Assembly: GCA_021780905.1 (NCBI GenBank)
Contig: JAJXXW010000018.1
Span: 82,847-146,846, forward strand
From: a bacterium
Lineage (GTDB): Bacteria; Verrucomicrobiota; Verrucomicrobiia; Limisphaerales; UBA11358
Direction: 5' to 3'
DNA: 64,000 bases
Position 1 is the stretch's first letter. Every line of letters begins with the position of its first letter. The position numbers were made by a program, and so were the translations under genes. This document shows, piece by piece, positions 26,551 to 52,066 of this stretch. A model generated the notes under the pieces. It was not told the DNA's origin, ran no database searches, and saw only the letters and a list, made by a program, of their open reading frames with translations.

Positions 26551-26622
26551 GATGAAAACGAATTGGTGTTGACAAACTCCCCGCTTTGCAACCGCCGCCC
26601 GCCGCGTTATTCTGCGCCGCAC

Positions 26623-29600
26623 ATGGCAAACCTTGGCTCCATCCACACCTACCGCTCGGAAGTGGACCACATCATCCGCTTCGGCGGCAGCACCAAGGAA
26701 ACCTCCATCCGCCGCGCCGTCTTCAATCTCATCAACGCCTACGCCCGCCCGCGCGATTTGCTGCTCGTCGAGGAACTCGATTATTTCAATCCCCGCCGCG
26801 ACAAAACCGTCCGGCCCGACGGCACGCTGAAAAACATTCTCCGCATTGACCAGGGCTTTTGGGAAAGCAAAGACACCGCCGACGACCTGACCGAGGAGAT
26901 CAAAAAGAAATTTGATCGTGGCTATCCCGATTCCAACATTCTCTTCGAGGATTCCCAGACCGCCATTCTCTATCAGGACGGCGCGCGGCTGCTCACCGCG
27001 CCGTTTGCCTCGGCCGAGAGCCTCGACGAACTTCTCACCGCCTACGTCTCGTTCGAGAATCAGGACGTTAAGGAATTCCGCAAGGCCGTCGAGCGGTTCA
27101 AGGACGACATTCCCAACATCGTCATCGCCCTGCGCAGCATGATCCTCAAGCAGGGCAAGGCCAACGCCCCGTTCCGCACGCGCCGCCAGACTTTTCTGGA
27201 ACTCTGCCGCAGCGCCATCAATCCCGCCGTCACGCCCGACGACGTGGATGAAATGCTCATCCAGCACATCCTCACCGAGGAAATTTTTCTCTCCATCTTC
27301 AGCGACACCCAGCTCCTCGATGAAAACAACATCGCGCGCGAATTGAAGCAGGTGGAAAACACCTTCTTCACCGGCGCGACCAAGCGCGACACCCTTGGCC
27401 AGATCAAACACTACTACGAATGTATCAAGGCCCACGCCACCAGCATCGTCAGCCCGCGCGAGAAGCAGACCTTCCTCAAGGTCATCTACGAAAATTTTTA
27501 CAAGGCGTATAATCCCAAGGGCGCTGACCGGCTCGGCATCGTTTATACGCCCGGCGAAGTCATTGATTTCATGATCCGCTCCACCGACACGCTGCTCAAC
27601 CGCCATTTCGGGCGCGGGCTGGCGGATCAGGCCGTGGAAATCCTCGACCCCGCCACCGGCACCGGCAGCTATGTGTGCGACCTCATTGAATATCTTCCGC
27701 GCGCAGTCCTCGCCCGGAAATACAAGCACGAGCTGCACGCCAACGAAGTCGCCATCCTGCCTTACTACATTGCCAACCTGAACATCGAGACCGCCTACGC
27801 CGCCAAGATGGGCAGCTACGCGCCGTTTGAAAACATCTGCTTCGTGGACACGCTCGACAACACCGAGGGGCTGCGCGTGGAGAACCAGTGGGAACTCGGC
27901 GCGATGAGCGCGGAAAACACCCGCCGCATCAAGGCGCAGAATCTGCGCAAGATCAGCGTCATCATTGGCAACCCGCCTTACAACGCCAACCAGCAGAACG
28001 AAAACGACAACAACAAGAACCGCACCTACGAACACATAGACCAGCGCATCAAGGCCACCTACATCGCCGCCAGCACCGCGCAGAAAACGAAAGCCTATGA
28101 CATGTATGCCCGCTTCATCCGCTGGGCGAGTGACCGGCTTGGCGATCAAGGCATCGTTGCTTACATCTGCAATCGCTCGTTTATTGACCAGCGCACGTTC
28201 GATGGCTTCCGCAAAACCGTCGCGCAGGAGTTTGACCATATTTACATCATGGATACGAAGAGCGACGTGCGGGCGAACCCCAAAATCTCCGGCACCAAGA
28301 ATAACGTCTTCGGCATTCAGACCGGCGTTGCCATTGTCTTCTTCGTCAAAGACCAAAGCCACCTGCGGTCATTCGATGAGGCGGGCAGCGCGAATGTCCT
28401 GAACCGGCGCACGGCCCTCCCTCACCCCGGCCCTCTCCCGCTGGGAGAGGGGGAACCGTGCGCCGCGCCTGGCGCAGGCGCAGCGACCGCTATATCCGGC
28501 GGCGGCCGAACTGGCTCCCTCTCCCAGCGGGAGAGGGCCGGGGTGAGGGAGAACGCCCCCGAACGTGCCGCCGACGCGCTGACACCGGGAACCCGTCCGT
28601 CGCATCCCTGCCGGATCTACTACGCCTCCATGGCGGATGAGGTTCCACGCGAAGAAAAGCTCGAGATTCTAAGTGCCGCCAAGATTGAGATGTTGGACAT
28701 GGAGCGAATTGAGCCGGATGCCGATGGTAACTGGCTGGATATGGATACCAGTGATTTCAAGAGCTTGCTGCCACTGGTCGGTGAGTTGGAGAAGGCGGTG
28801 TTTGGCCTCGATAGCAACGGCGTCGTCAGCAATCGCGATGAATGGGTTTATGATGTGGATGCCGACGCGCTGGCAAAGAAGGCCAAGTATCTCAGTGACG
28901 AATACAATCGGTTGCTCAAAGCGAAAGATTTATCTTTCCCCGATACCGTCAAGTGGAGCGAGAGTCTTAAATCCAAATTCAAAGCCGATCTAAAGTCGAA
29001 GTTCACGCGTAAGTTAATCATTGCGGCGATGTATCGCCCATTTACCAAGCTGCATTTCTATTCCGAGAAAGTCTTCAACGACCGGCTCACTGAAAACCAT
29101 TACCAGATGTTCGGCCCGGAATTGGACAAGGAGAACATTGTCATCCTTCACACCGCGCCGGATTCGCAGAAGCCTTTTCTCGCCTATGTCGGCAACTGCA
29201 TTCCCGATTTGCATTTTGTCGGAGCCGCCGCCGGAACAACGTGCCTTCCACTCTACCGTTACGATGAAGACGGCCACCGGCAGGACAACCTGACCGACTG
29301 GGGCCTGCGGCAGTTTCAGCAACACTACGGCGATGCCGCCATCACCAAGCGCGACCTATTCCACTACACCTACGCCGTGCTGCATCAACCGGCCTACCGG
29401 ACGAAATACGAGATCAACCTCAAGCGGGAATTCCCCCGGCTGCCCTTTTACGCGGACTTCCGCCAATGGGCCAAGTGGGGCCAGTCGCTCATGGAATTGC
29501 ATTTGAATTATGAGCAAGCCGCGCCCTTCAAATTGAAGCGCCACGACGCGCCCGATGAATCCGGGCGTCCCCTCACCCCGTCCCTCTCCCCTCCGAGGGG

Positions 29601-29967
29601 AGAGGGTGCCCGCAGGGCGGGTGAGGGGTCCGACATGGCTCGTGGACGCGTCACCGCCCCCGACGACAAACCAAAACTAAAACCCAAACTAAAAGCCGTG
29701 AAGGAAACCGGCACCATCGAGATTGACGCCACCACCACGCTCGCCGGCATCCCCGCCGCCGCGTGGGATTACAAGCTCGGTAACCGCAGCGGCCTGGAAT
29801 GGGTGCTGGATCAATGGAAGGAACACAAAATCAGCGACCCCACCGTGGCCGCCAAATTCAACACCTACCATTTCGCCGACCACAAAGAGCCAGTCATCGA
29901 ACTGCTCCAGCGCGTCTGCACCGTGAGCGTAGAGACGATGAAAATCGTCCGGGCTTTTCCAAATTGA
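26623..29967 (+). CDS. Orphan N6-adenine DNA methyltransferase, type ISP restriction-enzyme-like
   Basis: 1114 residues from the ATG at 26623. It resembles the methyltransferase plus target-recognition part of single-chain type ISP (LlaBIII-like) restriction enzymes. Motif I is EILDPATGTGSYVCDLIEYL and motif IV is VIIGNPPYNANQ, the NPPY of N6-adenine methylases. A helical region precedes them, and a long target-recognition segment with PFTKLHFYSEKVFNDRL follows. No SF2 helicase or Mrr-type nuclease precedes it, so it is a methylase-only form. Two segments look foreign: about residues 595-665, rich in Pro/Gly/Ala (PHPGPLPLGEGEP), and about 980-1005 (PLTPSLSPPRGEGARRAGEG). Both are encoded by interspersed palindromes inserted in frame. 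The whole gene is bracketed by a 27-bp inverted repeat. Confidence 0.85.
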   Translation: MANLGSIHTYRSEVDHIIRFGGSTKETSIRRAVFNLINAYARPRDLLLVEELDYFNPRRDKTVRPDGTLKNILRIDQGFWESKDTADDLTEEIKKKFDRGYPDSNILFEDSQTAILYQDGARLLTAPFASAESLDELLTAYVSFENQDVKEFRKAVERFKDDIPNIVIALRSMILKQGKANAPFRTRRQTFLELCRSAINPAVTPDDVDEMLIQHILTEEIFLSIFSDTQLLDENNIARELKQVENTFFTGATKRDTLGQIKHYYECIKAHATSIVSPREKQTFLKVIYENFYKAYNPKGADRLGIVYTPGEVIDFMIRSTDTLLNRHFGRGLADQAVEILDPATGTGSYVCDLIEYLPRAVLARKYKHELHANEVAILPYYIANLNIETAYAAKMGSYAPFENICFVDTLDNTEGLRVENQWELGAMSAENTRRIKAQNLRKISVIIGNPPYNANQQNENDNNKNRTYEHIDQRIKATYIAASTAQKTKAYDMYARFIRWASDRLGDQGIVAYICNRSFIDQRTFDGFRKTVAQEFDHIYIMDTKSDVRANPKISGTKNNVFGIQTGVAIVFFVKDQSHLRSFDEAGSANVLNRRTALPHPGPLPLGEGEPCAAPGAGAATAISGGGRTGSLSQRERAGVRENAPERAADALTPGTRPSHPCRIYYASMADEVPREEKLEILSAAKIEMLDMERIEPDADGNWLDMDTSDFKSLLPLVGELEKAVFGLDSNGVVSNRDEWVYDVDADALAKKAKYLSDEYNRLLKAKDLSFPDTVKWSESLKSKFKADLKSKFTRKLIIAAMYRPFTKLHFYSEKVFNDRLTENHYQMFGPELDKENIVILHTAPDSQKPFLAYVGNCIPDLHFVGAAAGTTCLPLYRYDEDGHRQDNLTDWGLRQFQQHYGDAAITKRDLFHYTYAVLHQPAYRTKYEINLKREFPRLPFYADFRQWAKWGQSLMELHLNYEQAAPFKLKRHDAPDESGRPLTPSLSPPRGEGARRAGEGSDMARGRVTAPDDKPKLKPKLKAVKETGTIEIDATTTLAGIPAAAWDYKLGNRSGLEWVLDQWKEHKISDPTVAAKFNTYHFADHKEPVIELLQRVCTVSVETMKIVRAFPN
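28419..28549. repeat. GC-rich palindromic repeat inserted in frame in the methyltransferase gene
   Basis: 33-bp arms at 28419-28451 and 28517-28549 are exact reverse complements (CCCTCACCCCGGCCCTCTCC...). They enclose a 65-bp loop. The ORF stays open across it, adding about 60 Pro/Gly/Ala/Arg-rich residues. Confidence 0.9.
29569..29627. repeat. Second GC-rich palindrome inserted in frame in the methyltransferase gene
   Basis: CCCCTCACCC on the left and GGGTGAGGGG on the right enclose inner arms CCCTCTCCCCTC / GAGGGGAGAGGG. It adds PLTPSLSPPRGEGARRAGEG to the protein without a frameshift. Confidence 0.85.
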
Positions 29968-29992
29968 ACTCCTCACCCCGGCCCTCTCCTCG
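29966..29992 (-). repeat. Right arm of the 27-bp inverted repeat
   Basis: Exact reverse complement of 26524-26550; it begins one base before the end of the methyltransferase stop codon. Confidence 0.9.
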
Positions 29993-30076
29993 GTCGGCGA
30001 ACCGGCTGGACCGGCTTGCTCACCAAAGATTGCCATTTTCGGGGTGAAAATTGGCAAAATCAGGTTTTTTTGGCGG

Positions 30077-30412
30077 ATTTGGCGACTTTCAGCGGTCATC
30101 AACCAAGTTGCAGCACCAATAAACCAACTTGCGATGGTCAAAAGGCGACAGCACGAAGGCATTTGGCGACTGGCAGATGCCATCCGGCGACCGCACATGG
30201 TCATAAGTCAACAGCACGAGGCGATAATCCAACTGGAAGATGGCGTTTGGCAACCGACAGATGGCATTTTCCAACTGGCAGCGGTCATTTGGCGACCGGC
30301 AGCAGTCATTTTTCAACCGGCAGATGCGATCCGGCGACTGACAGACGCGATCTTTTGACCGGCAGATTGCATCCGTCCACCGGCAGTTTCAATCCAACGA
30401 ACGGCAAAAGGA
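30077..30412. repeat. Array of 16 degenerate tandem units of exactly 21 bp (array A)
   Basis: The 336 bp split into 16 units of 21 bp with no indel. A working consensus is ATTTGGCGACCGGCAGATGGC. Position 9 is A in all 16 units. Positions 1 and 2 are A and T in 15 each, and position 10 is C in 14. Positions 3-6, 11-12 and 17-21 vary. Units can differ at half their positions, yet length is constant. Because 21 is a multiple of 3, translations show heptads (e.g. IFQLAAV IWRPAAV IFQPADA), and several frames are open on both strands, so no single frame is favoured as a gene. It lies between the methyltransferase gene and the 3' end of parE. Confidence 0.85.
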
Positions 30413-51161: not shown

Positions 51162-51211
51162 GGCAAAAGTGCCATTTTTCAAGGGTTTTTACACAAATCC
51201 ATGACGAATGA

Positions 51212-51520
51212 AGATCAATTCATCATGGTCGAATGTTCTTTCGTCATAAATGGACGCTCTTTCGTCAAGGTTGAATGTTCTCCCAGCGTGGAGACGGCTG
51301 GTTTGTCTTGGGAGAATGTTAATCCGTCTTGGCTGAATATCCTTTTAAGGCGAAAACCGCTGCTTTGTCACGGATGGATGTTCTCCCCTGTCGGTTGGAT
51401 GTCCGACTATGGCAAATCAATGTTTGTTTATGAAGGCTGGATGTTCTTTCATGGTGAACGGTTATTCATTTTTTGCGGTTAAATGCCCTGCCGCCATGGA
51501 CGGTTATGCTTTCGCCATAG
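51212..51520. repeat. Degenerate tandem array with 21-bp period (array B)
   Basis: The core GGATGTTCTTTCATGG (variants GAATGTTCTTTCGT, GGATGTTCTCCC, GTTATGCTTTCGCC) recurs with successive core positions at about 51233, 51275, 51316, 51337, 51378, 51399, 51420, 51441, 51462, 51483 and 51504. Spacings are 42, 41, 21, 41 and then repeatedly 21 bp, so about 14 units with one or two single-base slips. Translation shows heptads (WMFSPVG WMSDYGK SMFVYEG WMFFHGE RLFIFCG), but the 93-codon ORF has no other sign of being a gene. Consensus differs from array A although the period is the same. Confidence 0.75.
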
Positions 51521-51652
51521 ATTAGTATATATGCTTTTTATTTTAACGTATAATTAAATCATCTTTTGACCCATTGACGGGTGGCGGCAATTTGGATTTA
51601 TTGGCCGCGTTAGTTTTAACGCAATAACCTCAACCAAAAATCAAATAAAGTT

Positions 51653-52066
51653 ATGGCCAGAAAAACGGTTCGCGTAGATATACCCACCAGCAGCCCGGAT
51701 ACGCTCATGGCTTTGAGCCTGTCCATCCTGAAAAAACACGCGGCGGATGGCAATGCCAGCCCGCTGGACAATGACAAGATGACCAAGCTGCAAGCGGCGC
51801 TGAATATTGCCGTGCCGCAAAATCAAGCGGCCTTGGACGCGGATGCCGTGGCGCAAAAGGCGCGGCAGACGCGCGATCAGGCGCTCGGCACGGCGGACGG
51901 CCAGACGGTTTACACCAAAGACACAGCCATGAACATCGTCACTTATACCCGCGATTTGTTGCTGGTGGAAAATGAAGGCACGGAGGAGGCGCTCACGGCC
52001 TACGGCTTCAACGTCGTGGTCGGCTCGGCCAAAAATCCCACGCCCGCGCCCGCCAAGCCGAAATAA
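51653..52066 (+). CDS. Small conserved protein of unknown function (MARKTVRVDIP type)
   Basis: 137 residues: MARKTVRVDIPTSSPDTLMALSLSILKKHAADGNASPLDNDKMTKLQAALN, mostly helical and soluble, with GTADGQTVYTKDTAMNIVTYTRDLLLV and YGFNVVVGSAKNP at the end and a Pro/Ala/Lys tail. No signal peptide. It resembles uncharacterised proteins I associate with Verrucomicrobiota and Planctomycetes; no domain name is known to me. It is preceded by the 21-bp array B at about 130 bp and followed by a strong terminator, so it is a separate transcription unit. Confidence 0.75.
   Translation: MARKTVRVDIPTSSPDTLMALSLSILKKHAADGNASPLDNDKMTKLQAALNIAVPQNQAALDADAVAQKARQTRDQALGTADGQTVYTKDTAMNIVTYTRDLLLVENEGTEEALTAYGFNVVVGSAKNPTPAPAKPK

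Follow-up and report, generated by a model that had tools for sequence, protein, structure and literature searches.

Tandem arrays with a 21-bp pitch and locus-specific sequence precede small orphan genes in Verrucomicrobiota and Bacteroidota

Array B, located at positions 51212-51520 of the DNA analysed here (a stretch of 64,000 nucleotides from a Verrucomicrobiota genome, referred to as the window), is a genuine period-21 repeat. It belongs to a class of arrays for which the data presented below establish the 21-bp pitch, the association with small orphan genes, the dyad symmetry of the unit with a recurring central triplet, and evolution by whole units and by substitutions. The bolder interpretation, to which we lean by a small margin, is that the class is an undescribed bacterial element: arrays of two-helix-turn units (N9-YCA-N9), sequence-free but self-complementary, that serve a guild of small orphan proteins in Verrucomicrobiota and Bacteroidota as a near-obligatory partner in cis. 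As for mechanism, our preferred but tentative reading (probability about 0.38) is that array B is the cis-acting 5' RNA-structural part of a cassette which it forms with the orphan gene; that it is transcribed, folds in the cell and has a regulatory role is inferred. The relevant features of the window are the following.

51165..51211, plus strand: outer flank of array B, common to the relative G029 (BLAST, and alignment with L070)
51201..51482, plus strand: open frame of 93 aa across array B, not a gene
51212..51520, plus strand: array B, about 15 units of 21 bp with the consensus GTTCTTTCgTCaTGGaTGAAT (autocorrelation, repeat HMM)
51521..51652, plus strand: interval of about 130 bp between array B and F1 (alignment with G029; distance 133 nt)
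51653..52066, plus strand: orphan gene F1, 137 aa, product predicted to be helical with a proline-rich tail
30075..30395, minus strand: array A, an A-type array of the same class as array B
30020..30075, minus strand: leader of array A, homologous to the sequence that separates array and F2 in L060, L087 and L157

In array B the identity at lag 21 was 0.448 (z 7.1 against 1000 dinucleotide shuffles), whereas the highest value at any lag between 2 and 129 in any of the 1000 shuffles was 0.390; lags 42 and 62 were also above the shuffles (z 5.3 and 5.4). TRF independently reported period 21 at 51219-51281, within the array. With a 21-state repeat HMM two single-base slips were found, at 51293 and 51355, each corresponding to a unit of 20. 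The preliminary description, made from the sequence alone, had called this region a 21-bp-period array with one or two single-base slips, and had named the absence of a 21-bp autocorrelation peak relative to shuffled controls as the result that would refute it; the peak is present over the whole of 51212-51520, and both claims held. If the outer flank shared with the relative is counted, the recognisable extent of array B is approximately 51165-51525. Synteny with G029 ends at this flank, 4 bp past the stop codon of the upstream gene. Rfam gave no match at gathering score anywhere in the 64-kb window.

A protein-coding (heptad) repeat was considered as an explanation of the period and rejected. 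The G029 ortholog of array B has stops in the same frame, and the substitutions between the two are spread evenly over the codon positions (18/26/21), with no codon-phase bias, thus the 93-aa open frame cannot be regarded as a gene.

Array B ends 133 nt before F1, and the sequence between them (51521..51652) may be a leader or promoter region. No Pfam, PADLOC, NCBIfam or PHROGs family scored over threshold with F1, and its structure model, which is helical, had no match in the PDB. In the genus, a period-21 array lies upstream of each of the ten full-length F1 copies, and the consensi mostly differ; array B and its G029 ortholog do have a common consensus, and the arrays of L071 and L077, two F1 genes of one genome, differ in sequence. 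With the further copies, which come mostly from other families of the order (array present in five of six), 15 of the 16 F1 loci carry an upstream 21-bp array. A possible relative of array B in G034 (L162) proved to be a chance match.

The same genome contains many such arrays. A scan of 1.55 Mb detected 14 arrays at period 21 and 12 at period 42, and 0-6 arrays at each of the other periods from 8 to 59, the highest of these being small multiples of 7. It must be noted that the scan measured local periodicity above codon background in sampled stretches amounting to about 40% of the genome, and that the figure of tens of arrays per genome is an extrapolation from the scanned part. The arrays of this genome appear to be intergenic; a typical array has about 10-18 units, and arrays were found in two phyla, Verrucomicrobiota and Bacteroidota. 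When unit profiles were compared in all rotations and on both strands, clear agreement was seen only among array A, L060, L087 and L015a, and the mean similarity of the remaining 114 array pairs was z 0.34; outside the A-type copies the unit consensi are mutually unrelated. One sequence common to all arrays was rejected as an explanation, the A-type copies alone having a common consensus, and so was a common 40-nt leader, which is clear among A-type loci only (other resemblances were without statistical test). A search of the open-access literature for 21-bp repeats returned nothing relevant, which does not rule out a description elsewhere.

Some minor repeat features were also seen. Periods 14, 28, 35, 49 and 56 were in slight excess in the genome scan, perhaps as separate heptamer repeats, and array A has a weak 7-bp sub-periodicity as well. 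In L181 (580-760) and in L193 the 21-bp array is immediately preceded by an 8-bp microsatellite (GCAACCGC), and a GCGCGTT-type run is found just beyond the array of L017.

Array A is stronger than array B (lag-21 identity 0.572, z 12.9). A-type arrays precede orphan gene F2 (MNTKQQNKLAMYLA...) in relatives and in two other places in this genome; beside array A in the window F2 is missing. The A-type copies have different neighbours, and the two flanks of a single arrangement seen in G013 are divided between arrays A and L060, one at each. The possibility that an array after gyrB is a fixed site was dropped, G013 being the only one of the relatives compared to have it. At 26563-30400 of the window, array A adjoins a type ISP restriction-modification gene in the place where a relative has F2, and this rearrangement has its end in or at the array. 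At L060, from 16079 onward, the F2 downstream of the array is broken, its frame stopping after 32 aa; more intact F2 copies are those of L157 and relatives.

The preliminary description had also claimed that array A shares the period of array B with an unrelated consensus, and had inferred a class with fixed pitch and changeable sequence, unlike minisatellites. The first claim held, the A-B pair not being among the similar unit profiles. The second is supported by the genome scan and the consensus comparison, and needs two refinements: the pitch is not absolute, one array (L198) having a pitch of 22 bp, and the sequence is not wholly free, the units being self-complementary about a YCA/TGR centre. 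The check for fixed neighbours which it had proposed yielded the main result, that the arrays precede small orphan genes.

Arrays elsewhere in this genome are followed by small orphan genes other than F1, designated F2, F3, F4, F5 and F6. The F3 protein (MAKSYYLPSDD) consists of helices plus fn3, as does F4. Each of the ten full-length members of F1-F6 in the sampled stretches had an array within 700 bp upstream (the F2 members in this count include partly cut or broken genes), a 66-aa fragment of F1 and a weak frame resembling F5 being the exceptions to the rule. Of 320 genomes of the order, 49 contain F3, with up to nine copies each. Among the 26 F3 loci of the order with at least 300 bp of upstream sequence, 21 had a period-21 array, one (L198) a period-22 array and four none. 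Arrays were present in 4/4 testable F3 loci of Bacteroidota (Chitinophagaceae and others), some of them very AT-rich, and in 4/4 loci of F7 relatives elsewhere in the class. For comparison, random 730-bp windows of this genome set off the same detector in 1.3% of cases, a background figure which includes the true arrays. These statistics have weaknesses: the F1 and F3 loci are not phylogenetically independent, and gene starts were taken from open frames.

The position of the array relative to the gene is variable. In L182, L186 and L197 the array stops about 30-55 nt before the start codon, several others leave a gap of more than 150 bp to the gene, and L015b follows immediately 3' of an orphan gene. 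In L118 and L224 the array is between F7 and an apparent further orphan gene, 3' of one and 5' of the other, and no orphan gene is in view at L111, L142 and L015a. The single 22-bp-pitch array found before an F3 gene (L198:975-1120) has about seven units. The array-less F3 genes (L211, L212, L213 and L216) are all from one genus, and constitute a natural control for the role of the array.

The property which most of the unrelated arrays have in common, apart from the pitch, is self-complementarity. In 27 of 33 arrays (p<0.02, column shuffles) there was a phase about which the 21-bp consensus is self-complementary, and the unit of array B had a dyad symmetry of z 4.0. By a stricter yardstick, unrelated array pairs score at most about 10, and the self-dyads of most arrays score 10-17. 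About six arrays have no clear dyad symmetry. The triplet at the dyad centre was TCA, CCA, TGA or TGG (YCA/TGR) in 17 of 26 dyadic arrays, where 1.6 would be expected from other phases; a few of the 17 are orthologs, so the p-value is overstated. Predicted folding was stronger than that of shuffles (mean z -3.0, p 6e-8), with no strand bias over all arrays (paired p 0.99). Two arrays fold strongly on one strand only, L183 (sense -5.5, antisense +0.55) and L172 (-7.1 vs -2.0). For both the dyad test and the folding, the arrays were cut by hand or by an automatic rule.

Within units we could not detect covariation: the left half of a unit is no closer a match to the right half of that unit than to neighbouring units, and this rules against single-unit hairpins. 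Pairing with neighbouring units was slightly better than pairing with self, which similarity between neighbours could explain. The excess of G-U over A-C in the gene sense was not significant (p 0.095). A mixture of unit orientations was also considered, and cross-validation does not need such a mixture. Between array and gene an inverted repeat resembling a terminator (AAAATGGTTTA...TAAACCATTTTT) is present in L071 and L077; L182, L186 and L197 leave no room for a terminator there.

The fixed pitch, the free letters, the self-complementarity and the gene which is nearly always close together suggest a cis-acting element that works through structure. According to our preferred reading it would be one part of a two-part cassette, consisting of a locus-specific array (about 10-18 units at 21-bp pitch), a short leader and one small orphan gene. 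What matters in the array would most likely be that its units are self-complementary, the pitch serving to keep them in register, and not any fixed sequence. If transcribed, the array may form the 5' leader of the orphan gene, wholly or in part, or else an independent RNA that stops at a terminator-like hairpin, and the transcript may fold into long imperfect hairpins in which units pair with neighbouring units, with a mismatch at each central YCA. In this folded form it would regulate expression of the orphan gene or bind the protein which that gene encodes. Our preference for an RNA leader rests on the arrays that stop 30-55 nt short of the start codon and on those that fold on a single strand; L182, L186 and L197 are so near the start codon that little or no room is left for a promoter in between. 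Several observations speak against the RNA reading: the lack of overall strand bias, which is expected of DNA palindromes, the lack of covariation within units, the six or so non-dyadic arrays, the arrays more than 150 bp from the gene, and those without an orphan gene.

It is possible, and nearly as likely, that the array acts at the DNA level, as a row of quasi-palindromes, all facing the same side of the helix, to which a dimeric protein binds. A nucleoprotein filament would then control the orphan gene, and the binder would be locus-specific, perhaps the orphan product itself. Two turns of B-DNA at 10.5 bp make 21.0 bp. This correspondence, the overall symmetry of the strands and the lack of covariation between half-sites bring this explanation close to the RNA leader. 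It also fits the dyad symmetry, the equal fold energies of the two strands, and the gain and loss of whole units with few slips. On the other hand, homologous genes have unrelated array sequences, even L071 and L077 of one genome, the orphan proteins match no DNA-binding family, and the pitch of one array is 22 bp. Plasmid centromere and iteron arrays (parC, tubC, ori iterons) are ~20-bp tandem sites upstream of a small gene, and their sequences differ between systems, as in the arrays described here. Unlike them, the present arrays lie on the chromosome and by extrapolation number tens per genome, no motor or Rep gene was recognised beside them, and the orphan proteins have no match to a DNA-binding family. 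The ideas of a CsrA sponge and of a partition site were also considered.

A third explanation, which we regard as unlikely but cannot exclude, is a mobile cassette, with the array as a recombination or transposition end recognised by structure, similarly to attC. In favour of this are the patchy multi-copy families (F3 in 49/320 genomes, up to nine copies), the synteny break at the outer end of array B, the varied neighbours of the A-type copies, and the single flanks of the G013 arrangement held by arrays A and L060. Against it, no transposase or integrase was consistently beside the cassettes in a non-systematic look, no boundary or target duplication could be defined, and local hairpins are not favoured. 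Integron attC sites keep structure and not sequence, and go with single small genes of unknown function. The arrays differ from them in consisting of many tandem 21-bp units upstream of the gene, with no integrase seen and no favoured single-unit hairpin. Relatives of F3 or F5 were not found on viral contigs, nor relatives of F1, F3 or F5 on plasmids; a Thiodictyon plasmid has one distant F7 relative, without a clear array.

The arrays diverge faster than the adjoining gene. Array B and its G029 ortholog are ~80% identical, with 65 differences in 326 bp and no indels, whereas the neighbouring gene product is 96% identical to its counterpart. Between L157 and L156, two F2 loci, the gene aligns at 77% over 684 bp and the array does not align. 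The gaps between array A and G013 are of 42 and 21 bp, i.e. whole units, except at the alignment ends and for one 6-bp gap. Gains and losses of whole units do happen, and off-pitch indels are rare. Young arrays must exist, since L169, which belongs to another family, contains several nearly identical units.

The substitutions that separate array B from its ortholog follow a pattern expected if a more uniform ancestor had decayed, and taken alone they do not show selection. In line with this, the arrays could be fossil minisatellites, i.e. old tandem expansions from different seeds, functionless and decaying by substitution; the faster change of arrays than of the gene and the variation in unit number would also agree. 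We consider this very unlikely in view of almost a single period across two phyla, the dyad symmetry and central triplet common to the arrays, and the near-obligate link to particular gene families against a background of 1.3%. Minisatellites (VNTR) do resemble the arrays in having tandem units with whole-unit gain and loss, but here period 21 dominates dozens of unrelated units across phyla and is tied to gene families.

Among the described families that could be tested, none matches the 21-bp arrays. Rfam, Pfam, NCBIfam, PADLOC and PHROGs name nothing in the arrays or orphan proteins beyond the fn3 domain. ToxIN has a tandem repeat array upstream of one small gene, with ~3-6 repeats in ToxI (PMC8860590). 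The type III toxin-antitoxin systems (ToxIN, CptIN, TenpIN), whose RNA repeats are few, closely similar and folded as pseudoknots, share with our loci a repeat array before one small gene and repeats differing between loci. The terminator which these systems have between array and gene has a look-alike hairpin in some of our loci (L071, L077), and L182, L186 and L197 have no room for one. They differ in that here there are 10-18 diverged 21-bp units (lag-21 identity 0.45-0.57 in B and A) and several unrelated helical or helix-plus-fn3 families instead of the ToxN endoribonuclease; no Pfam or PADLOC match to a ToxN-like endoribonuclease was found among the orphan proteins. In TIGR arrays two repeats of 8-12 nt alternate, separated by 9-nt spacers, and the partner protein is Tas, which has a Nop domain (PMC12045711). 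Like the present arrays they are long, lie by a protein gene, have a repeat which is constant within a locus and varies between loci, and include palindromic variants (PMC12045711). Unlike TIGR, only 2/33 arrays here have a 9-nt low-information block, and there is no general even/odd (42-bp) alternation (p 0.28). The Nop domain PF01798 was absent from the genome of the window (90.6% complete), and the control search found it in four archaea.

Repeat elements are normally known by their sequence, whereas here pitch and self-complementarity are kept and the letters change, therefore searches by sequence similarity miss the arrays, which is perhaps why the class seems undescribed. The arrays connect several small orphan protein families that previously had no visible link, and provide a direct handle on their role. 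The pitch raises a physical question that can be tested, namely whether the spacing is set by two turns of DNA or by roughly two turns of an RNA helix. At L050 a gene for a Cas9-like protein (HNH_4, RuvC_III, 1211 aa; L050:2715-6347, minus strand) starts ~190 bp from the array, with orphan gene F4 on the other side of the array.
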